Part shown: positions 44,560 through 62,632 of the stretch, piece by piece
Numbering within the stretch: position 1 is the stretch's first letter
Layout of the letters: the number at the start of each line of letters is the position of its first letter
Program-made: the position numbers and the translations under genes
The notes under the pieces: model-generated
Told to the model about the DNA's origin: nothing
Database searches by the model: none
The model's input: only the letters and a program-made list of their open reading frames with translations
NCBI RefSeq assembly: GCF_013362815.1
Contig: NZ_JABFVK010000013.1
Span: 62,001 to 126,000 of the forward strand
Length of the DNA stretch: 64,000 nt
Direction of reading: 5' to 3'
From: Hamadaea sp.
GTDB taxonomy: Bacteria > Actinomycetota > Actinomycetes > Mycobacteriales > Micromonosporaceae

Positions 44560-45930
44560 ATGCCCGGAAGTCATCCCTCGCGCCGCCCTGCGCTCATCGC
44601 CGCGTACACGTTGGTTCTGCTGGTCTTCGGCCTGCCGATGTCGGCGACGGCCCGGCCCGCCCCCGAGAAGACGTGCGGCGCGGGCCTGCAGGCCATCGTC
44701 ACGACCGCGCACGTCGTCTGCACCCACGGACCCGACGCGGCCCCGCCCGGCCTCGACATCCACCGGCCGGTCGCGCCGCTCGCAGCCTCGCTCACCGTCT
44801 CGGCCCTGCCCGTCTGCGAGGGCGACGGGGTCACCGGCAAGCGGGTCGAGGTGCTCTACGTGCACGGCTCCACCAGCCGGTACGCACAATATCTGGAAAC
44901 CTTCCGGACGTTGGCCGAAGGCGTGGACGCGATCTACAACGCGAGCGCGGCCGAGACCGGCGGCGAGCGGCACGTCCGCTTCGTCACCGAGACCGTCAAC
45001 GGGCAGTGCCGCCCGGTGGTACGCGACGTGCAGATCGCCGATTCCGCGCTCAACGCCAACGACTGGGCGCCGTTGCTCAACGCGGTGCAGGCGGCCGGTT
45101 ACACGCGGACGGACCGGAAGTATCTGCAGTTCGTGGACGCGACCGTCTACTGCGGAATCGGCGGCTTCGCCGGGGACACCACCAAGAGCGACAGCAACCG
45201 GTCCAACGTCGGACCCGAGTACGCCCGGGCCGACAGCGGCTGCTGGAACGCCGGTGTCGCCTCGCATGAGCTCGGCCACACCCTCGGCGCGGTGAACAAC
45301 AACGCGCCCAACGCCTCGGGCAACGCGCACTGCGTCGACGAGTGGGACGTCATGTGTTACAAGGACGCCGACAACGTGACGCTGGTCTACCGCTGCACCG
45401 ACCAGTCCCACGACAACCGGCTCGACTGCAACCACGACGACTACTACAACACCAACCCGCCCGCGGGCAGTTACCTGGCGAACAACTACAACGTCGCCGA
45501 CAACCTGTTCCTGATCAAGGGTGGCGGCGGCACCACGCCTCCGCCGTCGACGACGTTCAAGCTGACGAACGGGGCTTCGGGCACCTGCCTCGACGATCCC
45601 GGCGGCAGCACGACGAACGGCGTACAGCTGATCCTGTGGACCTGCAACGGCGGCACCAACCAGACCGTCACCCAGAGCGGGGCTGCGCTGCAGATCCTGG
45701 GCAAGTGCATCGACGCGTACGGGGCCGGGACGGCCAACGGCACGAAGGTCATCCTGTGGACGTGCAACGGCGCGACGAACCAGCAGTGGACGCTGCGCTC
45801 CGACGGCTCGATCGCCGGGGTGCAGTCCGGCCGCTGCGTCTCGCCGCTCAACGGCGCGACTGCGAACAACACGCAGCTCGTCTTGTTCGACTGCAACGGT
45901 CAGGCGTACCAGCGCTGGACGCGTAGCTGA
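44560..45930 (+). CDS. Secreted metzincin-like metalloprotease with ricin-B lectin domain
   Basis: 456 residues. The signal peptide 'RRPALIAAYTLVLLVFGLPMSATARPA' is cleaved near residue 32. Catalytic zinc motif: 'VASHELGHTLGAVNNN' (His236, Glu237, His240). 'DEWDVMCYK' downstream fits a Met-turn, so this is probably a metzincin relative. A Gly/Pro-rich linker ('GGGGTTPPPSTT') is followed by a ricin-B beta-trefoil (about 330-456) with repeated 'LWTCNGGTNQ', 'LWTCNGATNQQW' and 'LFDCNGQAYQRW' (QxW) motifs that bind sugar. Role: extracellular protein degradation, targeted to a glycan surface. Ends before a strong hairpin shared with the next gene. Confidence 0.9.
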   Translation: MPGSHPSRRPALIAAYTLVLLVFGLPMSATARPAPEKTCGAGLQAIVTTAHVVCTHGPDAAPPGLDIHRPVAPLAASLTVSALPVCEGDGVTGKRVEVLYVHGSTSRYAQYLETFRTLAEGVDAIYNASAAETGGERHVRFVTETVNGQCRPVVRDVQIADSALNANDWAPLLNAVQAAGYTRTDRKYLQFVDATVYCGIGGFAGDTTKSDSNRSNVGPEYARADSGCWNAGVASHELGHTLGAVNNNAPNASGNAHCVDEWDVMCYKDADNVTLVYRCTDQSHDNRLDCNHDDYYNTNPPAGSYLANNYNVADNLFLIKGGGGTTPPPSTTFKLTNGASGTCLDDPGGSTTNGVQLILWTCNGGTNQTVTQSGAALQILGKCIDAYGAGTANGTKVILWTCNGATNQQWTLRSDGSIAGVQSGRCVSPLNGATANNTQLVLFDCNGQAYQRWTRS

Positions 45931-49194: not shown

Positions 49195-52100
49195 TTACGA
49201 GGTGAAGGCCTTCACCTCCAGCAAGCCGAGCGACGCACTGCCGGTCGAGGTCAGCACGACGCGTAGGCGGGTGGTCGAGACTCCGGTGAAGGTGACCGTG
49301 TTGTACGCGTTTTTGGTGAGCGTGTACGCGCTCGGCCCCGGCACGTCCACGTACGCCGAACCGTTCCAGTACTGCAGCTTCCACGCCGACGGCATGTCGA
49401 TGCCCTGATCGTCGTCGAAGAAGTAGACCTGGGCGCGGCTGACCGACTGGGCGGCCGGCCACTGGAGTTCGGCCCACTGCGTACCGGTCTCGGGCCAGGT
49501 GCCCCATCGGTTGCCCTGGTTGGTGCCGCCGTAGTTCGAACTGGTCGGCTCGTCCCCGTTGTTGACGGCCGCACAGCTTTCCCAAGACGACGTGTAACTG
49601 CACACGGGGGTTGCCGACAAGGCGAGGTTGGAATTCGGCGGCGGCTGCGTACCACCGCGGTTGAAGATCTTGATCTCGGTGAGGCCCGTCTTGGCGCCGG
49701 ACGCGTTCGTCGCCAGTACGCGTACCCGTTGGGCACTGATGGCCGGGAAGGTCACCAGGTTGTAGTTGGCGCGGGGAGCGCCCGGCGACTTGGCCTGGCT
49801 GGGGACGCTGACCCAGGCGGACCCGTTGTAGTACTGGATGTCGTAGGACGACGGCGCGCGATAGGTCGACGAAGCCGGTCTGCTGTCTTTGAAGTAGAGC
49901 CGGACCTCGTTGAGCGTGCGCGCGGTGCCGAAGTTGACCTCGTACCAGTCCTGGCTGTTCGGCGAGCCGCCCGCGCCCCAGAAGGGCTCGTTGATCGGGA
50001 AGCCGTCGACGGCGGCCGAGGTGCTGGTGCCGGAGCCGTTGTAGGAGGCGCTGACCGTCGCGCCGCTGGCGAGGTTGGTCAGGGCCGGGAGGGTGGTGTC
50101 GACGCCGGCCTTGGCCAGCTCGTCGAGCACCCGGGCGTCGCTCTGGACGACCTGGTTGGGGGCCTGGAGCGACGAGTAGGAGGTGTTGTAGCCGACGCTG
50201 CCGGAGGTGGTGACCGCGCCGGTCGCCGGGTCCCAGGTGAAGGGGACCAGCGAGTTGACGGTGGCGACCCGCGAGCCGTTGATGAAGATCGAGTAGCCCT
50301 CGGGTACGCCGGGGTACCGCACCACGCCGTCGGCCGGGTCGTCCCAGACGATGCTCAGGTCGGCGTTGCGGTAGCGGATGTTGTTGACGGTGAAGTAGCT
50401 CCAGCCGATGTTGATCGGCGACAGCTCGACCTTGGCGTCGTTGCGCGGCCGCAGCCCGGCGACGTCCTCGATCATCGTCCAGTTGCCGCTGCCCAGGATG
50501 TTGTGGTGGATCCAGGAGCGGTAGGTGATCGACGAACCGTTCCAGTTCGCCCAGAACTCGTTGGCGTCCGGGTACGCCGTGTTGCCGTTGACGTATTGGG
50601 CGTACGTGTTCCAGTACAGGAGCTTCTTGTACCAGTCAGCGGTGATCCACGAGTTCGGGTAGTTGCGCAGCACCGAGCTGATCAGCCGGAACTGGACGGT
50701 CGAGTTGATGGTGGAGAAGTTGTTGCTGCCCGTGCCCGCAGCCGCCTTGTCGGCCTGGTTCGCGGTGTAGAACGGGAAGATCGGGTACTGGTTCGGGTCG
50801 TCGAACAGCCGCAGCGCCTGCTTGTAGGTGGTCGTGTTCGGGATCGCGCCGACCGCGAACGGGTAGTAGATGTTGATCTCCTTCCAGGGGTTGAACGCCC
50901 CGTCGGAGACCATCCGGTTCTCGAACAGGTTGTGGCTGGGGTTCCACAACACGTTCACGATCGCGTTGCCGATGTCGGCGGCGAGCTGGCGCATCTCGGC
51001 CGCCTTGGCGGTGTTGCCGGCCGCCTCGTACGCCTGCGCCGCGGCGAGCGCCCCGCTGTACTGATACGCCGCCTCACCCCGGTCCATCCGGCCGGAGCGC
51101 CAGTCGAACGACACCGCGTCGGCGTCGTTGCCCGTCAGCGCGCCCCAGTCGTACTCGATGAGCTTGTTGTTGTTGGTGTCGTAGTAGGACAGCTGGCCCT
51201 TGACGTCGCCCTCGGCGTACTTGGCGAGGTTCGCCGCGATCGCCGGCTGGCCGCCGTGGATCTGGTAACTCTTCCAGGCAGCCTCGGCGATGTACTGGGT
51301 GTAGCTGTTGGACCAGTTCTCCGGGTCACCCGGATTGTCGACGAACCGGCCGCTCTTGCTGACCTGCCCGGCCGACAGCCAATCCCCGTACGCGTACAGG
51401 GGTGTGCGGAGGTACTTCAGGTCGTCGATGTGCATCGGCTGGGTCAGCACGATCGCGTTGTTGTAGCCGAGCGCGCCCTCGACGGAGATCGGGAACTGAT
51501 AGGTCTGCCCCGGGATGTCCGCGTCGAGGTTGTTGAAGCGCATCAACCACCAGCGGTAGTAGTAGTTCTTCTTCAGCGCCGGTTCGGGCGAGTCGAAGTA
51601 CGGGATGTTGTCCGCCCACCACTTGTTGTACGCCCGCACGTGGGTGGCGAACGCGGTGGCGTTGGAGTACCCGGCGTACGCGGTGTACTCCGACGACGAC
51701 TCGGGGATCTCGTTGGCGATGAACCCCATGACGACCTTCGCCGTGGCGGTGGCCCCGGCTCCGATCGTGATCGAGCGGTTCAACCCTCCACTAGAGACGG
51801 TGAACCCGTCGCCGGTCAGCTTCGTGGTCAGGTTCGTCAGGCTGTTCTTGACCCCGGTCGAACCGGTGAGCTCGCTCCCGCTGCCGCTCGTGGCGTACGG
51901 GGAGACCGCTCGCAGGGTCAGCGTCGTGGACGCCGATCCGGAGTTGGTGATCGACAGGTTCGTCACCGCGACGTTGTTGTTGGTGATGAACTTCTGCTGG
52001 GTGATCGTGATCGAGCCGCTGGTGAAGACGTTCTTCGAGTACGAAGGGGCCTGCCAGCGCTGTGACGGCTGCTCCGAGAACGTCCCCGGGCTCGCCGTGA

Positions 52101-52497
52101 TCGTGTACGCGTTGTTGTCGCTGATGCTCTCCCAGTACGCGACGTGCCCGGCGAAGCCCATCGTGCCCGGGGTGTACGTCTTCATGAACAGGGCCCGGCC
52201 CCGCGTCATGAGGATCGCGCCGTCGGCGTCGGCCGGGTCGCTGCCGCCGCTGCGCGACAGCAGCCGATCCATCCAGAAGTCGGTGCCGCCGCTCTCCGCG
52301 TTGTAGATCGCCTGCATCATGTTGCCGGTGGTGTAACCGACCGGGGCGGCCGGGATCGCCGGTCCGGTGAAGGTCGGCAGTCCGATGGTCTGGGCGGCGT
52401 AGCTCGGCGTGGCCTGCGCGGTGAGCAGCGCCGCGCCTAGCGTCGCTACTGTTAATGCCGCGACGCGGCGCCGGAAGGTGGTGCCGGTGGAGCCCAT
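49195..52497 (-). CDS. Secreted (alpha/alpha)6-type glycoside hydrolase with two discoidin/CBM32-like domains
   Basis: 1100 residues. The signal peptide 'RRRVAALTVATLGAALLTAQATPSYAAQ' is cut near residue 35. A beta-sandwich (about 60-270) is followed by an (alpha/alpha)6 toroid resembling MGH1-like hydrolases (about 290-760): 'YYYRWWLMRFNNLD', 'PISVEGALGYNNAIVL', 'SGRMDRGEAAYQYSGALAAAQAYEAAG', 'MIEDVAGLRPRND'. Two F5/8 type C modules at the C-terminus (about 860-985 and 995-1100) have 'DWYEVNFGTARTLNEVRLYF' and 'WAELQWPAAQSVSRAQVYFFDDD', typical of carbohydrate binding. The substrate is not known; the arabinofuranosidase neighbours suggest a plant or microbial arabinose-containing glycan. AGGAGGTGA precedes ATG 52497. 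Confidence 0.85.
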   Translation of the reverse strand: MGSTGTTFRRRVAALTVATLGAALLTAQATPSYAAQTIGLPTFTGPAIPAAPVGYTTGNMMQAIYNAESGGTDFWMDRLLSRSGGSDPADADGAILMTRGRALFMKTYTPGTMGFAGHVAYWESISDNNAYTITASPGTFSEQPSQRWQAPSYSKNVFTSGSITITQQKFITNNNVAVTNLSITNSGSASTTLTLRAVSPYATSGSGSELTGSTGVKNSLTNLTTKLTGDGFTVSSGGLNRSITIGAGATATAKVVMGFIANEIPESSSEYTAYAGYSNATAFATHVRAYNKWWADNIPYFDSPEPALKKNYYYRWWLMRFNNLDADIPGQTYQFPISVEGALGYNNAIVLTQPMHIDDLKYLRTPLYAYGDWLSAGQVSKSGRFVDNPGDPENWSNSYTQYIAEAAWKSYQIHGGQPAIAANLAKYAEGDVKGQLSYYDTNNNKLIEYDWGALTGNDADAVSFDWRSGRMDRGEAAYQYSGALAAAQAYEAAGNTAKAAEMRQLAADIGNAIVNVLWNPSHNLFENRMVSDGAFNPWKEINIYYPFAVGAIPNTTTYKQALRLFDDPNQYPIFPFYTANQADKAAAGTGSNNFSTINSTVQFRLISSVLRNYPNSWITADWYKKLLYWNTYAQYVNGNTAYPDANEFWANWNGSSITYRSWIHHNILGSGNWTMIEDVAGLRPRNDAKVELSPINIGWSYFTVNNIRYRNADLSIVWDDPADGVVRYPGVPEGYSIFINGSRVATVNSLVPFTWDPATGAVTTSGSVGYNTSYSSLQAPNQVVQSDARVLDELAKAGVDTTLPALTNLASGATVSASYNGSGTSTSAAVDGFPINEPFWGAGGSPNSQDWYEVNFGTARTLNEVRLYFKDSRPASSTYRAPSSYDIQYYNGSAWVSVPSQAKSPGAPRANYNLVTFPAISAQRVRVLATNASGAKTGLTEIKIFNRGGTQPPPNSNLALSATPVCSYTSSWESCAAVNNGDEPTSSNYGGTNQGNRWGTWPETGTQWAELQWPAAQSVSRAQVYFFDDDQGIDMPSAWKLQYWNGSAYVDVPGPSAYTLTKNAYNTVTFTGVSTTRLRVVLTSTGSASLGLLEVKAFTS

Positions 52498-52548
52498 GCG
52501 CGTCACCTCCTGATGACGTCGTTGGTGGGGGTTGTCGTGCGTGGATGA

Positions 52549-52597
52549 CCGGCGGGCGGCGGCGGGATGCCGGGTACATCCCGCCACCGCCCGCCGG
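52549..52597 (-). terminator. Terminator of the secreted GH127-like gene
   Basis: CCGGCGGGCGG (52549-52559) pairs with 52587-52597; inside it GGCGGGAT (52561-52568) pairs with ATCCCGCC (52578-52585). The two stems stack into a ~20-bp hairpin beyond the GH127 stop. Confidence 0.75.
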
Positions 52598-52600
52598 GGC

Positions 52601-55081
52601 TCAGGTGCCCGACGTGTACAGCGCGGCGATCTCGCTCGCGCTCAGGGCACGGCTGTAGAGGCGCAGTCCGTCGACCGCGCCGTCGAGGTACGGGTCGGCG
52701 TACTGCGAGCGGCCGATCCGGTTGGCGGTGGTGCTGCCCAGACTCGCCGGGGTCAGGGTCAGCCCCGTGCTGCGGGCGACTTCCGCGCCGTTGACGTAGA
52801 GGATGCCGACGGATCCGTTGAGCGTCACCGCGACGTGCGTCCAGGCACCGGTGGGCAGTGCGGCGGGCGCGTTGATGCGCTGCTCGCCGCCGGAACCACT
52901 CGTCGTGATGGCGAACCGGGCGGTGCCGGAGCTGCTGCGCGGAGTCAGGAACATGTTGACCGACGTGCTGCTGCCGAAGTCGAACAGCCGGGACCAGGTC
53001 GTCAGCGTGTCGATGCGGACCCAGGTCGCGATCGTCGCGGCGGCCGCACCGGCGAGGATGCCGGAGGGCAGCGTGACATGGCCGGTCGAGCCGTTGAGAT
53101 CCACCGCGTTGCCGCTGCGCCCGGCCACCCAGGCGGTGCCGCCGGACAGCGTCGCCGTCTTGCCGTTGCCGGTCGCGTCGGCCGCCGAGGTGCCGCTGGT
53201 CTCGTCGAACTTGTACCAGGCCACGAACTCGGGCAACGGCTGCGTCGAGCTGACGTTCCAGTACACGGTGTACCGCTGGTGGTGCATCTTGTAGAACGGC
53301 AGCAGCGTTACCGTGCCGGTGCTCGCGGTCGCCATGTACTGCAACGGCGTCGAGGTCGCGGTGATGGTCGACGGGTTCAGCGTCGGCAGCGCCGACAGGT
53401 TGCTGGTGCCGTAAGCGCCCGCGAGCACGATCGGCCCGATCTTCACCGCCTGCGTGGTCGCGCTGTCCGGCGCGGCCGACCGGGTCAAGGCCATCGGCAT
53501 CGTCATCGCCACGACGTCGCCGGTGGTCCAGGCCCGCGTGATGACGACCTGGGTTCCGGGGGTGGCCGCGACCGCGGTTCCGTTCAAGGTCACCGTCGCT
53601 CCGGTCGCCCATGAGGGTACGCGCAGCTTCAGCGTGAAGGAGGCGTCCCCGGTGACGGTCAGGCGCGTCGTGTTGGACTCCGGGAAGGTGGTGTCCTGGC
53701 GGATCGTCACGCCCTTCGCGGCCCAGTTCACAGTGGACGCAACGAACAGGTTGACGAAGATGGTGTTCGCGTTGTCGTGGAAGTAGATCGTGTCGGCGAA
53801 CTTCGTGTGCGTCTCCATGCCGGTGCCGTGGTCGCACGTGAAGTCGTTGTAGTCGTTGCTGTAGGTCTTGATGCCGCCGGCGCGCAACGGCGTGTAGTAG
53901 GTGACGAAGCCGTGCGCGGAGTCGGGGTCCTGCTCGCCGAGCATCTGGTTCCACAGCGTCCGCTCGTAGTACTCGAGGTAGTCCAGCCGCGCCGGGTTGG
54001 TGAAGTACAGCTGCCGGGTCAGCTTGAGCATGTTGTAGGAGTTGCAGACCTCGCAGGTGGAGTCGGAGAGCTGGCCGGCGATCCGGTCCGGGGCCTTGAA
54101 GTACTCGCCGTCGGAGTTGCCGCCGATGACGTAGGTGTGGTGGCCGACCACGATGTCCCAGAAGTTGACCGCGATGTCGCGGTACCGGGTCGTGCCGGTC
54201 GCGTGGTACTCGCGGATCGCGCCGATCGCCTTCGGGATCTGCGTGTTGGCGTGATAGCCGTTGAGCGCGTCGGTGTTGCTCGCCAGCGGGTCGAAGATCT
54301 CCGCGTGGTCGAAGTACTGGGCGGTCGTCAGATGGTTGGCGTCGCCGGTGACCTGATACAGGTTGGCCAGCACCTCGTTCATGCCGCCGAACTCGGTGTC
54401 TAGCATGTTCTGCCGCTGGGTCTGGGTGAGCCGGTCCATCCGGAACTTCACCCAGGCCGCCATCGCGGTGAGCACCGTCAGCGCTTGCGCGTTGCCGGCC
54501 AGCAGGTGCATGTCCAACAGCCCGGCCATGATCTTGTGCAAGGTGTAGTAGGGCGCCCACACGGACTGCCGGGCCTCGACGCGGTCGATGAAGCTCTCGG
54601 GGTACGCCGACAGGAAGCCGGTGTTGAAGCCGGCCGTCGTGGCCCGCGCCTGGCATTGGGCGAGTACGCCGACGATGTAGTCGCCCTTGGTCTTGAACGC
54701 CGAGTCACCGGTGTTGGCGTACGACTGGGCGAGTCCGGTCAGCAGATGACCGGTGGAGTGGCCGCGCAGCTCGGTCGTCGGCGACTCCCAGCCGCCGCAC
54801 GCGGTGGCGGTCGAGGAGAGCCCGTAGTTGAGCCGGAAGGTGTGCAGCAATCGGTCGGCGTCCACGAACTTCAGGTACGCCTGCGTACGGCCCTGGTTGT
54901 TCAAGAAGGGGCCGGCGAGCAGGGTGACGGCCGACAGCGGGAACGCGTACGCGGAGACGCCGGTGTCGGGCCGGGCCGCGTACGCCGCATCCCCGGAGAA
55001 CAGGGGTGCCGTGGTCGCGGCGACACCGGCCGCGACGCCGGTGGCGAGCAGGGTACGCCGGGTGACGGGGGAGTCGTGCAT
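52601..55081 (-). CDS. Secreted beta-L-arabinofuranosidase-like GH127/GH146 enzyme with LamG domain
   Basis: 826 residues. Twin-arginine signal 'TRRTLLATGVAAGVAATTAPLFSGDAAYA'. The catalytic (alpha/alpha)6 domain carries 'TCEVCNSYNML' (Glu344, Cys346) and a downstream 'FTCDHGTGMETHTK' (Cys416). These match the Glu and Cys residues that hold zinc and form the thiol nucleophile in GH127/GH146. A C-terminal LamG-like concanavalin domain (about 640-826; 'AWYKFDETSGTSAADATGNGKTATLSGG') should bind glycan. It releases L-arabinofuranose from extracellular polymer. Ends the operon segment downstream of the sugar ABC transporter, after its own hairpin. ATG 55081. Confidence 0.88.
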   Translation of the reverse strand: MHDSPVTRRTLLATGVAAGVAATTAPLFSGDAAYAARPDTGVSAYAFPLSAVTLLAGPFLNNQGRTQAYLKFVDADRLLHTFRLNYGLSSTATACGGWESPTTELRGHSTGHLLTGLAQSYANTGDSAFKTKGDYIVGVLAQCQARATTAGFNTGFLSAYPESFIDRVEARQSVWAPYYTLHKIMAGLLDMHLLAGNAQALTVLTAMAAWVKFRMDRLTQTQRQNMLDTEFGGMNEVLANLYQVTGDANHLTTAQYFDHAEIFDPLASNTDALNGYHANTQIPKAIGAIREYHATGTTRYRDIAVNFWDIVVGHHTYVIGGNSDGEYFKAPDRIAGQLSDSTCEVCNSYNMLKLTRQLYFTNPARLDYLEYYERTLWNQMLGEQDPDSAHGFVTYYTPLRAGGIKTYSNDYNDFTCDHGTGMETHTKFADTIYFHDNANTIFVNLFVASTVNWAAKGVTIRQDTTFPESNTTRLTVTGDASFTLKLRVPSWATGATVTLNGTAVAATPGTQVVITRAWTTGDVVAMTMPMALTRSAAPDSATTQAVKIGPIVLAGAYGTSNLSALPTLNPSTITATSTPLQYMATASTGTVTLLPFYKMHHQRYTVYWNVSSTQPLPEFVAWYKFDETSGTSAADATGNGKTATLSGGTAWVAGRSGNAVDLNGSTGHVTLPSGILAGAAAATIATWVRIDTLTTWSRLFDFGSSTSVNMFLTPRSSSGTARFAITTSGSGGEQRINAPAALPTGAWTHVAVTLNGSVGILYVNGAEVARSTGLTLTPASLGSTTANRIGRSQYADPYLDGAVDGLRLYSRALSASEIAALYTSGT

Positions 55082-55123
55082 GTGCCTCACCTTTCGTTGG
55101 GCGAAACGACGAGGGATTTCCGT

Positions 55124-55152
55124 TGCCGTGGCGCACCCGGAACGCCACGGCA
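55124..55152 (-). terminator. Terminator after the ABC permease genes
   Basis: TGCCGTGGCG (55124-55133) pairs perfectly with CGCCACGGCA (55143-55152), loop 9 bases, between the MalG-like permease stop and the secreted GH127 start. Confidence 0.75.
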
Positions 55153-55162
55153 TCGGGCGGGG

Positions 55163-55963
55163 TCAGCCTTTCAACGCGCCAGAGGCGAACCCGCGGACGT
55201 AGCTGCGTTGCATGAACGCGAACAACAACAGGCAGGGGACGGCCATGAAGACCACTCCCGCCTCCAGCGCCGCGTAGTCGATGGAACCGTGACTGGCGGT
55301 ACGCATGTTGACCACCGCCAGCGTGGTGGTGAACTTGTCGGTCGAGTTGAGCAGGATCAGCGGGGCGAAGAATTCGTTCCACGAGGCGAGGAAGGCGAAC
55401 AGGCCGACGGTGATGAGCCCGGGGCGTACCGCCGGGAGCATGATGCGCAGCAGCGTGGAGAAGCTGTTGCAGCCGTCGACCTGCGCCGACTCCTCGAGTT
55501 CCCGGGGCACCGCCTCGAACGAGTTGCGCATCATGAACAGCGAGAACGGCAGCTGGAACATGATGAGCACCAGGCTCAGCCCGATCAGGCTGTCCTGCAG
55601 GCCCAGCCAGCCGAGCAGCACGTAGAGCGCGATCAGGATCGTCGCGTACGGCACCATCAGGATCGCCAGCGTGAGCAGGAACAGCGCGTCCCGGCCGGGA
55701 AAGCGGAACCGGCCGAAGGCGTACCCGCCGAGCGTGGCGACGACCAGCGTGCCCCCGACGGTGAGCGCGCTGACCGTGAAGCTGTTGACCACGTGATGCA
55801 GGCGGATGCCATTGTCGGAGGTGAACAGCCGGTCGTAGTTCTCGAGGCCGAAGCCGCTGTTGGTGCGCAGCGACGCGTAGCCGCTCCACAGCAGCGGGAA
55901 CAGGAAGAGGATCGCGAGCGCGCCGCCCGTCACGCCGTACCCGGCTTTACCCCAGATCTTCAT
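55163..55963 (-). CDS. Carbohydrate ABC transporter permease (MalG-like)
   Basis: 266 residues, six membrane helices. The EAA loop 'EVPRELEESAQVDGCNSFSTLLRIMLPAVRPGLI' with its conserved G-x9-P is intact, and the ending 'QRSYVRGFASGALKG' is typical of MalG/UgpE. It pairs with the MalF-like gene 12 bases upstream to form the importer channel for the sugar bound by the lipoprotein at 56982-58262. No ATPase gene is in the locus; a shared MsiK-type ATPase, as in other actinomycetes, is expected elsewhere. Confidence 0.93.
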   Translation of the reverse strand: MKIWGKAGYGVTGGALAILFLFPLLWSGYASLRTNSGFGLENYDRLFTSDNGIRLHHVVNSFTVSALTVGGTLVVATLGGYAFGRFRFPGRDALFLLTLAILMVPYATILIALYVLLGWLGLQDSLIGLSLVLIMFQLPFSLFMMRNSFEAVPRELEESAQVDGCNSFSTLLRIMLPAVRPGLITVGLFAFLASWNEFFAPLILLNSTDKFTTTLAVVNMRTASHGSIDYAALEAGVVFMAVPCLLLFAFMQRSYVRGFASGALKG

Positions 55964-55975
55964 GGGTCAGCCCCC

Positions 55976-56920
55976 TCAGTGAGAACGCCGGCGCAGGACG
56001 CCGAGCTGGACGACGTTGACGATGACGAGGACCGCGAGCAGGGCGACCGACAGCGCGGCGGCCGATCCGAGATCGAGCCGGATGAACGCCTCCCGGTAGA
56101 TCACCATCACCAGCGAGGTGGTGCTGTTGTCGGGGCCGCCCCGGGTGAGGATCCAGAACTGGTCGAAGGCGAGGATCGAACCGGTGATCATCAGCGTCAG
56201 GACCAGGGCGATCGTCGGCCGCAGGAGAGGCAGCGTGATGCGCCGGAAGGTCTGCCAGCGGCTGGCCCCGTCGATGCGCGCGGCCTCGTAGACCTCCAGC
56301 GGGATTGCCTGGAGACCGGTGAGCATGATCAGCATGTTGAAGCCGGCGAACCGCCACAGCACCAGCACGACCGTCGAGCCGAGCGCGGAGTTCGCGCTGC
56401 CGGACGTCCAGGAGACGTAGCCGTCGACGAGCCCGACCGCCCGCAACGCGTCGCTCACCGGGCCGACCTCGTCGGAGAGCAGACCGAGGAAGAGCAGCGA
56501 CGCGCTGGCGAACCCGACCGCCATGGGCAGGAAGAACGCGGTACGCAGAAAGCCCACCCCGCGACGGCGGTTCTGCACCAGCAGCGCCAGGCCGAGGGCC
56601 AGCGAGAAGAGCAGGACCGTCATGATCACGGTGTACTTCAGGGTGAACCAGACAGCCGAGCCGACGAGCTGGTTGTCGCCGATGCCGGCGTAGTTGTCGG
56701 GCAGGTTGAACGTCGGCTGGCCCAGCAGCGGCCACTTGTGCAGCGACATCCACACGACGAGCAGCAGTGGCGTCACGAAGAACAGCCCGACCATGACCGC
56801 CGTGGGGGCGGCGTACGCGGCGCCGATCAGGCTCCGCGTGCGGGTCCGGCGGTTGGTGGGAGCGCGGCGCGGCGCCGGTCCCTGTGCCGGCGGCGCCGGG
56901 CGCTGCATCGTCATGGACAT
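55976..56920 (-). CDS. Carbohydrate ABC transporter permease (MalF-like)
   Basis: 314 residues. A basic cytosolic N-terminus ('RRAPTNRRTRTRSLIG') is followed by six membrane helices. The EAA loop is 'EVYEAARIDGASRWQTFRRITLPLLRPTI', the classical MalF-type docking site for the ATPase. Forms a heterodimer with the next gene product. A hairpin separates it from the binding-protein gene upstream, which is usual where the binding protein must be in excess. Confidence 0.93.
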   Translation of the reverse strand: MSMTMQRPAPPAQGPAPRRAPTNRRTRTRSLIGAAYAAPTAVMVGLFFVTPLLLVVWMSLHKWPLLGQPTFNLPDNYAGIGDNQLVGSAVWFTLKYTVIMTVLLFSLALGLALLVQNRRRGVGFLRTAFFLPMAVGFASASLLFLGLLSDEVGPVSDALRAVGLVDGYVSWTSGSANSALGSTVVLVLWRFAGFNMLIMLTGLQAIPLEVYEAARIDGASRWQTFRRITLPLLRPTIALVLTLMITGSILAFDQFWILTRGGPDNSTTSLVMVIYREAFIRLDLGSAAALSVALLAVLVIVNVVQLGVLRRRSH

Positions 56921-56945
56921 CAGTTCTCCGCTACTCGGCTCGGGA

Positions 56946-56972
56946 CCCGGCCGTCCGGTGTGGACGGCCGGG
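56946..56972 (-). terminator. Hairpin between solute-binding protein and permease genes
   Basis: CCCGGCCGTCC (56946-56956) pairs perfectly with GGACGGCCGGG (56962-56972), loop 5 bases. A partial terminator or mRNA-stabilising stem that would raise binding-protein over permease expression. Confidence 0.7.
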
Positions 56973-56981
56973 CCGGACTGG

Positions 56982-58262
56982 TCAGCCTTGCTGAAGCGAC
57001 TTGGTGATCGCGGCGTTTCCGTCGGCGAGCGAGGAGGCCGCGTCGCCGAACATCGCCCCGCGTACCGTTTGCAGCCACGGGCTCTGCGGGTCGTTGAACG
57101 AGGCGTTGAAGTTCTTCGCGTACGGCGTCTTGCCCTTCGCGACGAGGCTGTTGATCGTCACGATGCGCGGGTCGGCCGAGGAGTACTTGTTCGAGGCGAG
57201 GTCGGTGCGGATCGGGACGCCCTTGTTCTTGGCGATCACCTCGACCTGGGCGGCCTCGGACATCGTCCAGTTCAGGAAGTCCCAGGCCTGCGCCTGCTTG
57301 GTGCTGGTCGCGCCGATGCCGATCGAGTCGCCGCCGATGAAGGTGGACTCGCCGCCGTCGAGGCCGGTGATCGGGGCGACGCCCATCTTCACGCCCTTCT
57401 CCTCGATCATGCCGAGCCACACCGACGGCCCGGGTGCGATACCGATCTTGCCGCTCTGGAGCGCGCCGAGCCAGGTCGGACCGGCCTCGTCCTTGGACGC
57501 CGGCGCGGCCACGCCCTCGTCGTAGAGCGAACGGTAGAGGGCGAAGACGTCCGCCATCTCCTTCGAGTCGATCTTCGCGGCGGTGCCCTTGTCGTCGAGC
57601 ACGTTGCCGCCGGACGCCCAGACCGACGGCCAGAAGGTGAACTCGACGCACCCGCCGCAGTTCCCGCCGAAGTAGGTGCCGTTGACGTCCCCGCCCAGCT
57701 TGTCGATCTTCCGAGCCTGCTCGGCGAACTCCTTCAGAGTCGTCGGCGGCTTCTCCGGGTCGAGCCCGGCCTTGGCGTACAGGTCCTTGTTGTAGAGCAT
57801 GACCGACATGTCGACGGTGTGCGGCACGGCGTAGGTCTTGCCTTCCCAGGTGCCGGCGCGGACGTGGCCGGGGGAGACCTTGTCCTTCACCCCGCTGGCG
57901 TTGAACCGGTCGGTGATGTCGGCCCACAGCCCCTGCGAGGCGTACTGCGGCGCGAAGACGACGTCGGTGGCGAACAGGTCGGGCAGCGCCTTGGCGCCGG
58001 CCGCCGAGGCCAGCTTCGCCGGGTACTCCTCGTTCGGGTACGCCGTCACGGTCACCTTGTTCTTGTGACCGGCGTTGTACGCGTCGGCGTACGCCTTGGA
58101 CACCGACTCGGTGGCGGCCCGCGTCCACAGCGTCAGCTGTGCGCCGTCGTCGACGCCGGCGGTGGAGTCCCCGCCGGTCGCCTTGTCATCGCTGCACGCC
58201 CCGAGGACGGCGGTCAGCAGGACCGCGACCGCCACGGCGGCCGGGGCTCTCAATGATCTCAC
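56982..58262 (-). CDS. Sugar ABC transporter solute-binding lipoprotein
   Basis: 426 residues. Lipoprotein signal 'APAAVAVAVLLTAVLGACSDD' with lipobox LGAC. The type 1 extracellular binding fold (MalE-like) shows 'LTLWTRAATESVSKAYADAYN', 'PDLFATDVVFAPQYASQGLWADIT', 'YAVPHTVDMSVMLYNKDLYAKAGLD'. It captures a sugar for the MalF/MalG pair. The gene lies 48 bases downstream of the cytosolic GH127 gene on the same strand, so import and hydrolysis are co-expressed. GTG start. Confidence 0.93.
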   Translation of the reverse strand: MRSLRAPAAVAVAVLLTAVLGACSDDKATGGDSTAGVDDGAQLTLWTRAATESVSKAYADAYNAGHKNKVTVTAYPNEEYPAKLASAAGAKALPDLFATDVVFAPQYASQGLWADITDRFNASGVKDKVSPGHVRAGTWEGKTYAVPHTVDMSVMLYNKDLYAKAGLDPEKPPTTLKEFAEQARKIDKLGGDVNGTYFGGNCGGCVEFTFWPSVWASGGNVLDDKGTAAKIDSKEMADVFALYRSLYDEGVAAPASKDEAGPTWLGALQSGKIGIAPGPSVWLGMIEEKGVKMGVAPITGLDGGESTFIGGDSIGIGATSTKQAQAWDFLNWTMSEAAQVEVIAKNKGVPIRTDLASNKYSSADPRIVTINSLVAKGKTPYAKNFNASFNDPQSPWLQTVRGAMFGDAASSLADGNAAITKSLQQG

Positions 58263-58310
58263 GATCTCTCCTTCGATTCGGGATACAGCGGCTCGGGCGG
58301 CCGGGGTCGG

Positions 58311-60272
58311 TCAGGTCTTGGGCAGCCAGATCCGCATCGTGGCCGGTCCCTGGCGGCCCCAGCGGTGATAGGGAATCAGTCGCAGCGTCGTCGGGGTCCG
58401 GGCTCCGCCCGCCGCCGCGTCGCCGTAGGGCCACGCGGCGGGAGCGGTCTGTTCGAGCACGGCGGAGACGGAGACCGTGCTCTGCTCGGGGTTCTTCTCG
58501 TGCTCCGCCGGGGAGACGGCGGCGTAGTCCGCCGGGAGAACGGCGGTGTCGACCCGCACCCGGTCCAGGTCGAGCTGCGCGTCGAGCGACTCGGCGCACA
58601 GGACGATCGGGCCGCGTTCGACCGCGACACAGTCGCGCACGGCGTCGATGCGAGGGTCGGGGTGCGTGAACCGGGGGTGGATCGGCAGCCAGAGGACGAT
58701 CTCGTCGCCCGCCCGGAACTGCCGCCGGACGACCACGCGGCCTACTGAACCGACAGCATCGCCCGATACGGGCTGCGGAACTCCGTTGACCGTGAGGGTG
58801 GCCCCGCTACCGGCCCAGTTCGGCAGCCGCAGGCCCACCCCCCATTCGCCGCCGGAGGTCTCGGTGACCCGGATCCGGACGCCCCCGCTGTCCGGGTACG
58901 CGGTCGTCACCGAGAGTCCCACCGGCCGCCCGTCGGCCAACCGCGTACGCACCTCGGCGTCGCCGTATTGCAGGAGGTGCACTTCGTCGTCGGTGGCCGC
59001 GGCGAAGTACGCCGACAGGCTGGCGATCAGCCGCGCGGTGTTGCCGAGGCAGCAGGACACCTCGAACCAGGGCGCGCGGGGACCGCCGCCGAAGCCGAGT
59101 TGTTCCTGGTCGTCCGGCACCACCGCGGTCGGCGTACGCTGATGCAGCGTGTTGGCGTAGAAGAAGGACCGGCCGTCGTCGCCCAGCGAGGTCGCGACCA
59201 CGTTGTACAGCACGCGTTCGATGACGTCGGCGTACCGGGACCGGCCGGTGGCGAGCAGCAGCCGCCAGGCGAGCATGACGGTGGCGACGCCGGCGCAGGT
59301 CTCGGAGTAGGCGCGGTCCGACGGCAGGACGAAGTCGTCGCCGAAGGCCTCGTCTTCGTGCCGCGAGCCCATGCCGCCCGTCAGATACGTACGCCGGGCC
59401 AGCGTGTGGTCGAACTGCTCGATGATCGCGCCCAGCAGGTCGTCGTCGCCGGTCTCGACCGCCACGTCCACCGCGCCGGCGGCGAGGTAGAGCGCGCGGA
59501 CGGCGTGACCGCGGAAGGTGTGCGCCTGCCGGATCGGCACGTCGTCGCTGAAGTAGGACCAGCCGAACTGATGCGGCGGCAGGCTGCGGTGGCCCCGGCG
59601 GCGCAGGAACAACGCAGCCTGGTCCAGGTATCGCTGCTCGCTGGTGACCCGGGCGAGCTCGGCCAGGGCCGGCTCGATCTCGGGGTGTCCACACACGACG
59701 GCCGGACCGTCCGGGCCGAAGGTCTCGCAGACGTGGTCGGCGGCCCGCTGAGCGACGGTCAGCAGATCGTCCCCGCCGGTCGTACGCGTCCGCGCCACGG
59801 CCGCCTGCAGGAGGTGCCCGGTGCAGTAGAGCTCGTGCCCCCAGGACAGGTCGCTGTAGCGGGCGCGCTGCCCGGGGCCGCCGAACGCGGTGTGCAGGTA
59901 GCCGTCGGCGGCCTGAGCCCCCGCGAACAAGGTCGTCAGCTCGGCGATCTCGCGGTCGCGGCCGGGCGTCGGCTGCCGTCCGTTCTCCCAGGACATCGCC
60001 TCGACGAGCTTGTACACCTCGGAGTCGGTGAACTCCCGGCCCCGGCGGTCGGCGTTGGCGTCCCCGTCGCGCAGGAACGATCCCGTCCAGCCGAGCTTGT
60101 CCATCCACACTCGACCGTGGTCGAGCGTCGCACTGCCGATCAGGTGCTGCCGCCGGCTCCAGAAGCCCCCGGTGATCCGCACCTCGGCCAGGCCGAGCGG
60201 GCGCAGCGCGCCGCGTGACGGCACGACAGGCCGCCCTCCCGTGAGGTCGGCGGGGCGGGCCGTCACCGTCAT
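58311..60272 (-). CDS. Cytosolic beta-L-arabinofuranosidase, GH127 family
   Basis: 653 residues, typical GH127 length. Zinc/thiol site: 'YSETCAGVA' (Glu324, Cys326) and 'VSCCLGN' (Cys407, Cys408), the positions known as Glu338, Cys340, Cys417 and Cys418 in Bifidobacterium HypBA1. The N-terminus 'VRITGGFWSRRQHLIGSATLDHGRVWMDKLGW' matches the family start, and no signal peptide is present. It hydrolyses beta-L-arabinofuranosides inside the cell after uptake. AAGGAGG precedes ATG 60272. First gene of the - strand operon, directly beside the LacI operator. Confidence 0.92.
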   Translation of the reverse strand: MTVTARPADLTGGRPVVPSRGALRPLGLAEVRITGGFWSRRQHLIGSATLDHGRVWMDKLGWTGSFLRDGDANADRRGREFTDSEVYKLVEAMSWENGRQPTPGRDREIAELTTLFAGAQAADGYLHTAFGGPGQRARYSDLSWGHELYCTGHLLQAAVARTRTTGGDDLLTVAQRAADHVCETFGPDGPAVVCGHPEIEPALAELARVTSEQRYLDQAALFLRRRGHRSLPPHQFGWSYFSDDVPIRQAHTFRGHAVRALYLAAGAVDVAVETGDDDLLGAIIEQFDHTLARRTYLTGGMGSRHEDEAFGDDFVLPSDRAYSETCAGVATVMLAWRLLLATGRSRYADVIERVLYNVVATSLGDDGRSFFYANTLHQRTPTAVVPDDQEQLGFGGGPRAPWFEVSCCLGNTARLIASLSAYFAAATDDEVHLLQYGDAEVRTRLADGRPVGLSVTTAYPDSGGVRIRVTETSGGEWGVGLRLPNWAGSGATLTVNGVPQPVSGDAVGSVGRVVVRRQFRAGDEIVLWLPIHPRFTHPDPRIDAVRDCVAVERGPIVLCAESLDAQLDLDRVRVDTAVLPADYAAVSPAEHEKNPEQSTVSVSAVLEQTAPAAWPYGDAAAGGARTPTTLRLIPYHRWGRQGPATMRIWLPKT

Positions 60273-60322: not shown

Positions 60323-60340
60323 GCCGAAAACCTTTTCGGC
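60323..60340. promoter_or_regulatory. LacI operator O1 upstream of the GH127 gene
   Basis: GCCGAAAA-CC-TTTTCGGC, perfect 8-bp arms, 51 bases ahead of the GH127 start. Core CGAAA/TTTCG is the same as at O2 and resembles the CGAA-N-TTCG boxes known in Streptomyces xylanase promoters. Confidence 0.7.
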
Positions 60341-60433: not shown

Positions 60434-60448
60434 TCGAAAGGCTTTCGA
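60434..60448. promoter_or_regulatory. LacI operator O2 overlapping ribosome site and start of the lacI-type gene
   Basis: TCGAAAG-G-CTTTCGA, perfect 7-bp arms, ends on the A of the ATG at 60448; the ribosome site GAAAGG lies within it. TTGACA at 60394-60399 is the likely -35 of this gene. Negative autoregulation is the natural inference. Confidence 0.7.
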
Positions 60449-61470
60449 TGGGCAGACGGCGGTCGCAACAGGTGACCCTCACCGACGTGGCGCAGCTGGC
60501 GGGCGTCTCGGTCGCCACCGCATCCAAGGCGCTCAACGCCAAGGGCGAAGTCGCGCCGGACACGAGGCAACGCGTACTGCAGGCCGCCGAGCAGTTGGCG
60601 TTCCAGCCGAACGTGCTGGCGCGCGGGCTGATCTCGGGGCGTACGCGGACCATCGGACTGCTCACCGACGAGCTCGCCGGCCGGTTCTCCATCCCCATCC
60701 TGCTGGGCGCGGAGAACGCCCTCGGCAACGAACAGATGTCGGTGCTGCTCTGCGACGCCCGCGGCGATGCCATCCGCCGCCGGCACTACATCCGTACGCT
60801 GGTCGCACGCCAGGTCGACGGGTTCATCGTGGTCGGCGACAGCAACGACGTGACCCCGTCGCTGGGCCGGGAGATCCCGGTCCCGGTCGTGTACGTCTAC
60901 GGCCAGTCGACCGATCCCGACGACCTGTCGCTGCTGGCCGACGACGAGGGCGGCGCGCGCCTGGTCGTGGAGCACCTGATCGCCCAGCGCCGCCGCCGCA
61001 TCGGGCACATCACGGGACCGGAGACCTACCGCGCCGCCCGGGACCGGGTGACCGGCGCCCGGGCCGTGCTCGCCGAGCACGGTCTGAGTCTGGTGGGCGG
61101 CGAGCCGCTCTACGGCGAGTGGTCCCAGCGCTGGGGTCGGCACGCCACCCGGCAATTGCTGACCGCGCATCCGGAGACCGACGCCTTGTTCTGCGGCAAC
61201 GACCAGATCGCCGTGGGCGCTCTGCAAGTGCTGCAGGAGATGGACCGCCGCGTTCCGGACGACGTCGCCGTGGTCGGCTACGACAACTGGGAGGTCCTGG
61301 CGGCCGACTGCCGGCCGCCGTTGACCACAGTGGACTTGAATCTGGAACAGCTCGGCGCGACCGCCGTCCGGCATCTGTTCGCCGCCCTCGACGGCAAGCC
61401 GACCACCGGGGTGCTCCGGCAGCCCTGCCGTCTCGTCGTACGCGAGTCGACCGGTCCCGCGCCGGCCTGA
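60448..61470 (+). CDS. LacI-family transcriptional regulator of the arabinofuranoside locus
   Basis: 340 residues. N-terminal HTH 'VTLTDVAQLAGVSVATASKALNAKGEV' and hinge 'LAFQPNVLARGLISGRTRTIGLL' are classic. The periplasmic-binding-fold core has 'DGFIVVGDSND', 'RRRRIGHITGPETYRAARDRVTGARAVLAEHG' and 'DALFCGNDQIAVGALQVLQE', ending 'LRQPCRLVVRESTGP'. Divergent from GH127 with two palindromes between, so it should repress the operon until an arabinose-containing oligosaccharide or sugar binds. The next gene is convergent, two bases away. Confidence 0.95.
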   Translation: MGRRRSQQVTLTDVAQLAGVSVATASKALNAKGEVAPDTRQRVLQAAEQLAFQPNVLARGLISGRTRTIGLLTDELAGRFSIPILLGAENALGNEQMSVLLCDARGDAIRRRHYIRTLVARQVDGFIVVGDSNDVTPSLGREIPVPVVYVYGQSTDPDDLSLLADDEGGARLVVEHLIAQRRRRIGHITGPETYRAARDRVTGARAVLAEHGLSLVGGEPLYGEWSQRWGRHATRQLLTAHPETDALFCGNDQIAVGALQVLQEMDRRVPDDVAVVGYDNWEVLAADCRPPLTTVDLNLEQLGATAVRHLFAALDGKPTTGVLRQPCRLVVRESTGPAPA

Positions 61471-61471
61471 T

Positions 61472-62632
61472 CTAGATCGCGGAAATCATGACCACGATGA
61501 ATTTCAGGGTTTCCCGGAGCCAGCCGGGCGTGTCCGGCGAGCCGATGATGGAGGCGACGGCGAGCCCCGCTGTAGTCCACACGGGTATGAAGGTCAGCTC
61601 TGCGGCGCCTCTGAGGCGCAGGTACCGAGGGTCCTTTTCGCCGAGCTCCTTACGCCGGCGCGAGGTGACGCGGCAGAGCTGGATGAACCCGAGGACGACG
61701 ACCAGTGCGAAACAGCGTAGATCCGGTTTGCCGAGCAGTTTCCACAACGAGTAGGGGAAGGCCATCACAATCGCGAGGAGCAGCAGGTACAACAGCCCGT
61801 AGAGGCCGCGGGCCAGCACCGAGTACACGCCGTGGCCGCTCTGGTACTCGACCTCGTCTGCCGCCTCCGGTAGAAGGATCATGACGGGAAGCATCAGGAA
61901 CTGCATCGCGAGGAAGGCGACCGCGACGTCGATCCGCAGGAGGCCGAAGGCGGCCAGGGCCAAGGCGACCGCCGCCGCCGCGACCAGGTTCGCAGCGAGT
62001 TCGATGGAGATGGTCCGGGCGAGCCGCGCGGTGCGATCCGCGTGCCGTCGGGAGGCCCGGACGTCGACCGTCACCAAGACGGCCAGTGCGGCGGCCGGAA
62101 GAAGCACGCCCGCCACCGCCGCGACGGTTATCGGCAGGCTGCTCGCCACCGAGCCGTCCGCCACGGCGATCAGCCACGAACCGCTCAGCACGACGACGGT
62201 GCTCAGTAGATTGACGCCGACGTCGCGAGCGAACTTGAACCAGATCAGCAGGGGGAGCGCCAAGATCAGCGCGGCCGCGATGACCATCTCCGGACCCGGC
62301 CCGATTCGGCCGGTGACCAGCAGGAGCAGCCAGACCAAGGCGGCGGCGAACAGGTTCGCGACGACGTTGACGCCGAGGTCGCGCAGCTTGCCCAGCAGAG
62401 GGTCGCTCTCCCACCAGGTGATGAGGACGGCCGCCCCGATGGCGCTGACGACGGCGACCGTCACTGCGATGGCGGCGATGCCGGTGGAACGGGGAAGGTG
62501 TGCCAGTCCACGATCGGCGGCGATCAGCCAGCCGCCGACGAGCATGGCGAGGGTGCCCGACGCGTTGAGGACCACGTCGCGAGTCAGTGGTGCTCCGTCA
62601 GCGCGGAGCCGTTGCAGTACGCCGGATGCCAC
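61472..62632 (-). CDS. Multi-pass membrane protein of unknown function
   Basis: 386 residues with about ten hydrophobic helices, including 'GIAAIAVTVAVVSAIGAAVLI', 'LGVNVVANLFAAALVWLLLLV', 'MVIAAALILALPLLIWFKF', 'VGVNLLSTVVVLSGSWLIAV' and 'LLYLLLLAIVMAFPYSLWKLL'. 'VDVRASRRHADRTARLARTISIELAANLVAA' lies between halves; 'DLGVNVVANL', 'DVGVNLLSTV' and 'SIELAANLVA' look like an internal threefold repeat (V-N-L). I do not recognise the family. Divergent from the xylanase gene; GTG 62632. Confidence 0.7.
   Translation of the reverse strand: MASGVLQRLRADGAPLTRDVVLNASGTLAMLVGGWLIAADRGLAHLPRSTGIAAIAVTVAVVSAIGAAVLITWWESDPLLGKLRDLGVNVVANLFAAALVWLLLLVTGRIGPGPEMVIAAALILALPLLIWFKFARDVGVNLLSTVVVLSGSWLIAVADGSVASSLPITVAAVAGVLLPAAALAVLVTVDVRASRRHADRTARLARTISIELAANLVAAAAVALALAAFGLLRIDVAVAFLAMQFLMLPVMILLPEAADEVEYQSGHGVYSVLARGLYGLLYLLLLAIVMAFPYSLWKLLGKPDLRCFALVVVLGFIQLCRVTSRRRKELGEKDPRYLRLRGAAELTFIPVWTTAGLAVASIIGSPDTPGWLRETLKFIVVMISAI

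Follow-up and report, generated by a model that had tools for sequence, protein, structure and literature searches.

The hyp cluster of Bifidobacterium longum JCM 1217 comprises HypBA2 (GH121), HypBA1 (GH127), HypAA and an ABC importer for the disaccharide β-L-arabinobiose (β-Ara2). Three acidic residues of HypBA2 are reported to be essential and fully conserved across GH121, a family described in 2020 as coming mainly from bifidobacteria and Xanthomonas (PMC7263609). Xanthomonas euvesicatoria is likewise reported to use GH121 and GH127 enzymes (XeHypBA1/BA2/AA) against hydroxyproline (Hyp)-linked arabinosides of plant cell walls, with a GH121-GH43 operon under HrpX (PMC6085000). BT0349 and Bll3HypBA1 are assigned to GH146; the latter carries LamG modules, and its C805S and C805A variants were reported as inactive, the zinc-ligand cysteine being essential (PMC10850190). 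Further background is given elsewhere (PMC8106489, PMC13403950, PMC10728902). GH121 has already been named in actinomycete genome papers, Streptomyces and Planotetraspora among them, so its presence in actinomycetes is not in itself new.

Here we describe a locus in a 64,000-nucleotide stretch of DNA (the window) from Hamadaea sp., a soil actinomycete. With a probability of roughly 85%, this locus is an actinomycete counterpart of the B. longum system and is directed at the β-L-arabinofuranosides of hydroxyproline-rich plant glycoproteins. PDB entries served as references, because no bifidobacterial hyp locus scoring above the cut-off was drawn in 394 genomes of the class. Compared through these entries, the two systems share GH121, GH127, a β-Ara2-type solute-binding protein (SBP) with its permeases, and the catalytic residues of the enzymes. 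They differ in that the Hamadaea operon has no HypAA-like GH43 gene, includes a secreted GH146-LamG protein, and faces a LacI gene and an operator-like site. The X. euvesicatoria operon differs again, since the ABC importer, GH146 and LacI stand here in place of a GH121-GH43 pair controlled by HrpX.

Gene layout and enzyme families

All genes named in a sequence-only reading of this DNA were recovered in place, as a minus-strand run from 49195 to 60272 and a divergent LacI-family gene (60448..61470, plus strand; PF00356, PF13377) that lies just beyond that range. The six minus-strand genes look like one operon and are presumably co-transcribed. Next to the regulator is the gene for a PF07944 enzyme (58311..60272), in which no signal sequence could be read by eye. 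It is followed by the SBP gene (56982..58262), whose product is an SBP by Pfam as well and has a lipobox, 'LGAC', recognized by eye, and by two ABC sugar permease genes (55976..56920 and 55163..55963; BPD_transp_1, PF00528, E 8.8e-18 and 6.9e-18), which together bear out the proposed sugar importer. A second PF07944 enzyme (52601..55081) is taken to begin at a Met preceding a Tat-like leader, 'TRRTLLATG', again read by eye, and ends in a LamG module that Pfam confirms; its open reading frame extends to 55153, from which its residues are numbered. The final gene (49195..52497) encodes the large protein. Its open reading frame reaches a GTG at 52587 (1130 aa, the numbering used here), and an ATG at 52497 is the likely start (1100 aa); the leader, also judged by eye, is Sec/Tat-like.

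The sequence-only reading could not assign the large protein to a known family and ranked it as the best candidate for a new enzyme activity. It can in fact be assigned, and a new activity is not supported. By sequence it belongs to GH121, the family of the β-L-arabinobiosidase HypBA2: it matches HypBA2 (PDB 6m5a) with E 9.3e-186 over residues 101-683 and 678-830, with identity at 283/576 aligned positions (49%). The catalytic residues E370, D488 and E677 correspond to HypBA2 E383, D515 and E713, and P419, G420 and W425 to P437, G438 and W443; each is kept in 84/84 sequences compared. The 6m5a match and the conserved triad together rule out a new glycoside hydrolase family, and membership in GH142 or a GH63-type family, raised by a Pfam MGH1-like match, was dropped because GH142 5mqr (E 2.1e-19) scores far below 6m5a. 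The same reading had named, as grounds for refutation, clear membership of a characterised GH family that acts on something unrelated; what emerged is a known family with a related substrate, as the known GH121 substrate is itself an arabinofuranoside.

The NCBIfam HypBA2 model NF041578 (1709 positions) matches the protein with E 2.9e-251 and 837 bits, its best stretch spanning 17-1056. This score lies below the equivalog cut-off of 3200 bits, a value reached in 0/300 genomes of the family and 0/394 of the class. By analogy with HypBA2, the layout would consist of a leader, an N-domain, an (α/α)6 catalytic barrel, a C-domain and two discoidin-type modules; the modules, already noticed from the letters, are placed by Pfam at 859-957 (PF22633) and 987-1128 (DUF7402). 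The B. longum protein, as described, is longer at 1943 aa and has a C-terminal membrane region. The columns of the Ca2-site ligands hold D470, N472, N474, L476, E478 and D502, and at two of them the residue is not that of HypBA2 (N497 to Asp, D505 to Glu), though either replacement could in principle serve as a ligand. We regard the enzyme as a putative β-L-arabinobiosidase.

Both PF07944 proteins had been called GH127-like. This stands for the cytosolic enzyme, a putative β-L-arabinofuranosidase for which GH127 4qjy (E 9.1e-87) and 3wkw, presumably HypBA1 (E 3.4e-77), far outrank GH146 5opj (6.4e-7). It has E308 as acid/base, E324, C326, the nucleophile C407 and C408. For the secreted enzyme the PDB ranking is reversed and rules out GH127: the best match is 5opj, which we take to be BT0349 (E 2.9e-101), followed by Bll3HypBA1 (8k7y; E 3.9e-62), with 4qjy at 1.8e-16. 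The PF07944 barrel, the acid/base Glu (E350), the Glu-x-Cys motif (E368, C370) and the nucleophile Cys (C440) all align with the two GH146 structures, and E368/C370/C440 make up its zinc and nucleophile set. Where BT0349 and Bll3HypBA1 have the second Cys of a Cys-Cys pair, the alignment places D441, so the set of three Cys and a Glu that forms the zinc site is incomplete in this protein, which we call GH146-type by sequence with no claim to a canonical zinc site. Asp occupies this position in all four sequences read from the genus, representing about three species, and Cys is found elsewhere; a close homologue from Catellatospora, for example, has the Cys-Cys pair.

The GH146-type protein of this genus might thus be a dead enzyme retained as a carbohydrate-binding protein, a reading that is compatible with the hyp-like assignment of the locus and that we consider a serious possibility, if the less probable one. 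It draws on the replacement of a zinc-ligand Cys by Asp and on the loss of activity in the C805S and C805A variants of Bll3HypBA1. Against it, the nucleophile Cys (the first of the pair), the Glu-x-Cys motif and the acid/base Glu are all still present, and dN is well under dS in comparisons with two genomes (0.053 and 0.299 versus G061; 0.135 and 0.531 versus G039). Purifying selection on the Asp-bearing form fits a functional protein, which by itself does not prove catalysis.

Proposed pathway, regulation and substrate

The best PDB matches of the SBP are 6lce/6lcf (E 2.6e-86), better by some 60 orders of magnitude than the runner-up (E 1.2e-26). As 6lce is the β-L-arabinobiose-binding protein of B. 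longum, which reportedly accepts no ligand but β-Ara2, the Hamadaea SBP is a putative β-Ara2 binder. The genes suggest the following pathway. The secreted GH121, probably anchored to the substrate by its two discoidin modules, would free β-Ara2 from chains of β-1,2-arabinofuranosides attached to Hyp. Import would fall to the lipoprotein SBP with its two permeases, and the cytosolic GH127 would cleave the disaccharide, giving L-arabinose that could enter the isomerase route; the genome has an araA-type gene. The secreted GH146-type enzyme, if active, may take off another terminal β-L-Araf, and LacI would act on one operator in the region that separates its gene from the operon.

The putative LacI operator, CGAAAACCTTTTCG (60325..60338), lies in the divergent promoter region. 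With up to one mismatch this sequence occurs once in the 7.45-Mb assembly, and the more general CGAAANNNNTTTCG pattern, at the same tolerance, has its sole site in the window there. The pattern was present in 49/55 LacI upstream regions, window included, against 2.1% of 2750 control stretches, a figure that belongs to a data-informed pattern because CGAAANNNNTTTCG was fixed after the window site had been seen. A strict CG-centred palindrome was rejected as the operator: the first scan found one in 4/55 regions, and the window had none. We take the site to be a candidate operator, whose regulator would respond to an inducer.

To place the locus among its relatives, we counted genes with our own bit thresholds in the DNA fetched around each GH121 gene. 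On this basis the SBP, both permeases, GH127 and LacI are all present at 45/80 GH121 loci. Of 71 loci that span 20 kb or more, 22 had no ABC gene above threshold; GH121 is thus not always accompanied by this importer. A GH146-like gene accompanies GH121 at just 23/80 loci and therefore looks accessory, though close homologues of the Hamadaea GH146 in 200 genomes of the family mostly start within 12 kb of a GH121 start (33/47, window included). GH121 genes of two score classes coexist in some genomes, and at three Streptomyces loci two GH121 genes flank one GH127-ABC-LacI set, which suggests specialisation.

There is good support for the sequence-only label of an arabinofuranoside utilisation locus, and the target can be specified more closely as β-L-arabinofuranosides of the type carried by hydroxyproline-rich glycoproteins. 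A different target, the β-L-Araf termini of arabinan or arabinogalactan-protein (AGP), with GH121 and GH146 trimming side chains, is improbable. One GH146 enzyme is reported to be active on AGP and arabinan, and the nearest of the six GH43 genes in the genome, 12 kb past the window, is α-L-arabinofuranosidase-like; its best PDB match is 3akf, presumably SaAraf43A. Yet characterised relatives of both GH121 and the β-Ara2-type SBP are, in the descriptions available, tied to β-1,2-Ara2 from Hyp-arabinosides, and GH146 has the accessory distribution noted above. Slightly less probable still is that this GH121 clade has drifted to another disaccharide or aglycone with its catalytic residues unchanged. 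The modest 49% identity to HypBA2, the two score classes and the paired Streptomyces genes would agree with drift, but the equivalents of HypBA2 E383, P437, G438, W443, D515 and E713 are all kept and the adjoining SBP and GH127 match the β-Ara2 pathway. Mycobacterial arabinogalactan is an unlikely substrate, its arabinan being D-configured.

Putative secreted peptidase genes near GH121

Several secreted HExxH protein families occur near GH121 genes more often than chance. For one of them (family D), 31/121 genes lie within 10 kb of GH121 where about 0.3 would be expected, with 0/50 and 0/61 in two partial controls; a search of the PDB with its profile, allowing E values as high as 1, brought up no relative. 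The window itself carries a putative secreted metallopeptidase of another (family A; 44560..45930, plus strand), in which HExxH was read in the sequence and a ricin-type lectin domain (PF00652) is present. Its gene is 3.3 kb from the GH121 gene, with an M1 aminopeptidase gene between them, and its matches to peptidase models are weak and below cut-off. Among the close homologues listed from elsewhere, 4/36 have a listed GH121 gene no more than 15 kb away, against about 0.1 expected. Neither family gave a usable structure model (mean pLDDT 45.6 for D, 30.8 for A). We found no report of a GH121-peptidase link: the one match to all search terms was a Sclerotinia transcriptome, and a broader search was swamped by peptidase words, arabinobiosidase being absent from its listed matches. 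The link may perhaps be unpublished.

The family A peptidase may be part of the arabinoside system. A bolder proposal, which we advance tentatively and think rather unlikely as a whole, is that actinomycete systems for plant hydroxyproline-rich glycoproteins couple GH121 genetically with several unrelated secreted metallopeptidase families that cut the de-arabinosylated backbone, and that the GH146 cysteine glycosidase of this lineage works with Cys2-Asp-Glu as its natural zinc site, in place of Cys3-Glu.

A protein that had appeared unknown is now placed in a structurally solved family, and the gene set for β-arabinooligosaccharides to which it belongs recurs in many actinomycetes (45/80 loci), accompanied by a regulator and a candidate operator. 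The Cys-to-Asp exchange that occurs naturally in this cysteine glycosidase makes it possible to test the role of the zinc Cys directly. If functional, the peptidase linkage would help explain how bacteria digest glycan-protected, extensin-like proteins.

The large secreted protein and its pathway

The large secreted protein (49195-52587, minus strand), which carries two discoidin-type modules by Pfam (PF22633 at residues 859-957 and DUF7402 at 987-1128), had been put forward in the sequence-only reading as a candidate new enzyme activity. Homology instead assigns it to GH121. Its top PDB chain is HypBA2, the solved GH121 β-L-arabinobiosidase (6m5a, E 9.3e-186; the runner-up, GH142 5mqr, reached 2.1e-19), with identity at 283 of 576 positions aligned by MAFFT. 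HypBA2 is also its sole NCBIfam match (E 2.9e-251); the score, 837 bits, falls short of the model's equivalog threshold (3200). According to the HypBA2 mutagenesis study (PMC7263609), E383, D515 and E713 are essential; in the MAFFT alignment these correspond to E370, D488 and E677 of the large protein. The three acids were kept in all 84 sequences compared (the window's and 83 ORFs out of the 80 GH121 loci described below), as were P437, G438 and W443 (HypBA2 numbering), and the same six residues were present in 40/40 sequences of a tree set that included HypBA2 and left out a roughly 400-bit class. The 6m5a match and the conserved catalytic residues rule out a new family, and the claim of a new activity falls with it.

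HypBA2-model matches of about 400-435 bits form a third class, with open frames of about 1600-1900 residues, that is common in some genera (for example, G281:C1:1774010-1776352, given as surveyed genome, contig and positions). This class is possibly a sister family of GH121.

The cytosolic enzyme (58311-60272, minus strand) matches GH127 in a PDB search (4qjy, E 9.1e-87; HypBA1 3wkw, E 3.4e-77), and its acid/base Glu and cysteine set are in place. The solute-binding protein (SBP) of the ABC importer (56982-58262, minus strand) has as its top match 6lce/6lcf (E 2.6e-86; next 1.2e-26), the Bifidobacterium longum β-arabinobiose-binding protein, for which exclusive binding of β-L-arabinobiose is reported (PMC8106489). 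In the B. longum route, GH121 outside the cell frees β-L-arabinobiose, which is then brought in by an ABC importer and cleaved by GH127 inside the cell. By their predicted functions, the SBP and GH127 fit a single pathway with GH121. The window's genome has an L-arabinose-isomerase-type gene (PF02610); no GH43 genes were found in the operon, and of six genome-wide the nearest lies 12 kb past the window. The GH121, SBP and GH127 matches uphold the original proposal of an arabinofuranoside utilisation locus, and the reading of it as a β-L-arabinofuranoside utilisation operon, most likely for hydroxyproline-rich glycoprotein and a variant of a known system, is well supported.

Operon layout, regulator and distribution

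ORF reading and Pfam confirmed the previously named genes and their coordinates. In order of transcription on the minus strand, the genes for the GH127-type enzyme and the SBP are followed by two permease genes (55976-56920 and 55163-55963), the gene for a secreted PF07944 protein with a LamG domain (52601-55153) and, last, the GH121 gene. The gaps between them are short (12 to about 100 bases, with start codons of our choosing), so the six look like a single putative operon. The LacI gene (60448-61470) is divergent from this run. A predicted multi-pass membrane protein, recognized by eye at 61472-62632, matched nothing in Pfam with E as high as 1 allowed.

A palindrome-like 14-base site, CGAAAACCTTTTCG, lies at 60325-60338; no other place in the window fits CGAAANNNNTTTCG with one mismatch allowed, and the 14-mer occurs once at that tolerance in the 7.45-Mb assembly (97% complete). 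Across loci, CGAAANNNNTTTCG at up to one mismatch was present in 49/55 regions upstream of LacI (exactly in 24 of them, and missing from 6) versus 2.1% of 2750 equal-length stretches from the same loci, a comparison that overstates its strength because the pattern was defined with the window site already in view and the loci are related to one another. Upstream of GH121 it was found in 20/79 (a raw count with no control set). The simplest reading is that LacI is a putative local repressor of a single operon.

Scanning genome contigs yielded 129 relatives. We kept 80 loci, 79 titled as actinomycetes and one as Paenibacillus phyllosphaerae (L083), and called neighbour genes above bit thresholds of our own. 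The SBP, both permeases, GH127 and LacI occurred together in 45/80 loci, a GH146-like gene in 23/80 (for about half of these, identity to that of the window is no more than about 38-42%), and all six components in 15/80. Among the 71 loci of at least 20 kb, 22 had no ABC gene above threshold. The best match comes from a Hamadaea MAG (95%), which suggests Hamadaea or something close to it as the probable source of the window. The HypBA2 model, NF041578, was matched at E up to 0.001 in 159/300 genomes of the window's own family, many weakly, and at E up to 1e-60 in 22/394 genomes of the class. In three Streptomyces loci (L024, L045, L074), a single GH127-ABC-LacI set is flanked by a pair of GH121 genes, which share about 73-76% and 52-53% identity with that of the window.

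An altered zinc site in the GH146-type enzyme

Both PF07944 enzymes had been described as GH127-like. This holds for the cytosolic one; the secreted protein with LamG is assigned by its matches to the GH146 type (5opj, E 2.9e-101, and 8k7y, 3.9e-62, versus 1.8e-16 for GH127 4qjy). Of 47 close GH146 homologues listed from 200 genomes of the family, the window included, 33 start within 12 kb of a GH121 start, making GH146 a regular GH121 partner there.

In GH146 and GH127, zinc is held by a Glu and three Cys, the nucleophile among them. In the window's enzyme, alignment shows the first residue of the Cys-Cys pair kept (C440, numbered from the ORF start at 55153) and the second replaced by Asp (D441). 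This Asp is common to the four sequences of the genus read (the window, the surveyed genomes G061 and G039, and Hamadaea tsunoensis). In all four, the residue separating the zinc Glu from the Cys is Val, a position taken by Cys or Ser in other sequences. G039 and H. tsunoensis, alike around the site, may be one species; no close GH146 homologue was found in the fragmented assembly of G080, the fourth genome of the genus. The Asp was seen in 0/27 other family sequences; a separate alignment gave 0/17 for further sequences, of which 10 were also among the 27. The gene's dN/dS, about 0.18 versus G061 and 0.25 versus G039, indicates purifying selection. In the GH146 reference Bll3HypBA1, C805S and C805A at the corresponding Cys abolished activity (PMC10850190). 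Either D441 would itself bind the zinc, or catalysis would have been lost and another role kept.

Metallopeptidase-like neighbours

A gene with a hydrophobic-HExGH motif was present, within the fetched DNA, in 17/80 loci. These genes sort into at least four groups, which we label families A to D; examples of the four lie near GH121 genes at 44560-45930 in the window, 5650-6483 in L054, 11748-12905 in L050 and 6882-8807 in L032. The proteins are secreted, some with lectin, CBM2 or discoidin-like modules. A Pfam peptidase cut-off was reached by none of the A, B and D members scanned, and an NCBIfam one by none of those scanned from all four families. They are putative peptidases by their motif and by weak model matches. 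The family-D protein of L060 has a module resembling, by eye, the C-terminal one of GH121, and a family-B protein of L032 matches the HypBA2 model at 1135-1283, outside the catalytic part (E 3.5e-12).

Among 121 family-D genes from 300 genomes of the window's family, 31 have a listed GH121 gene no more than 10 kb away versus about 0.26 expected, spanning 7 genera with 15 from a single genus; the other 90, the majority, have no listed GH121 gene that close. Within 15 kb, the counts were 5/37 for close family-A homologues (at least 435 bits, the window's own at 44560-45930 included) versus about 0.12 expected, and 4/34 for family C (195 genomes) versus about 0.13. The expectations were computed for genes placed at random in genomes of 9.5 Mb, ignoring shared ancestry and the general clustering of plant-wall genes. 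Among the best matches listed, in genomes with a listed GH121, M4 peptidases (0/50, about 0.2 expected) and more distant family-A relatives (0/61, about 0.3 expected) were absent near GH121; with expectations this low, a small excess could not have appeared in these controls. No family D or C match was found in the window's own genome. In two genomes (G122:C1:4264754-4271358 and G069:C17:61150-67002), a GH121 gene and members of both family C and family D lie within a few kilobases of one another.

We hypothesize that the HExxH proteins cut the protein backbone after arabinose removal. With a new activity set aside, the remaining interest of the locus lies in the altered GH146 site and this peptidase linkage.
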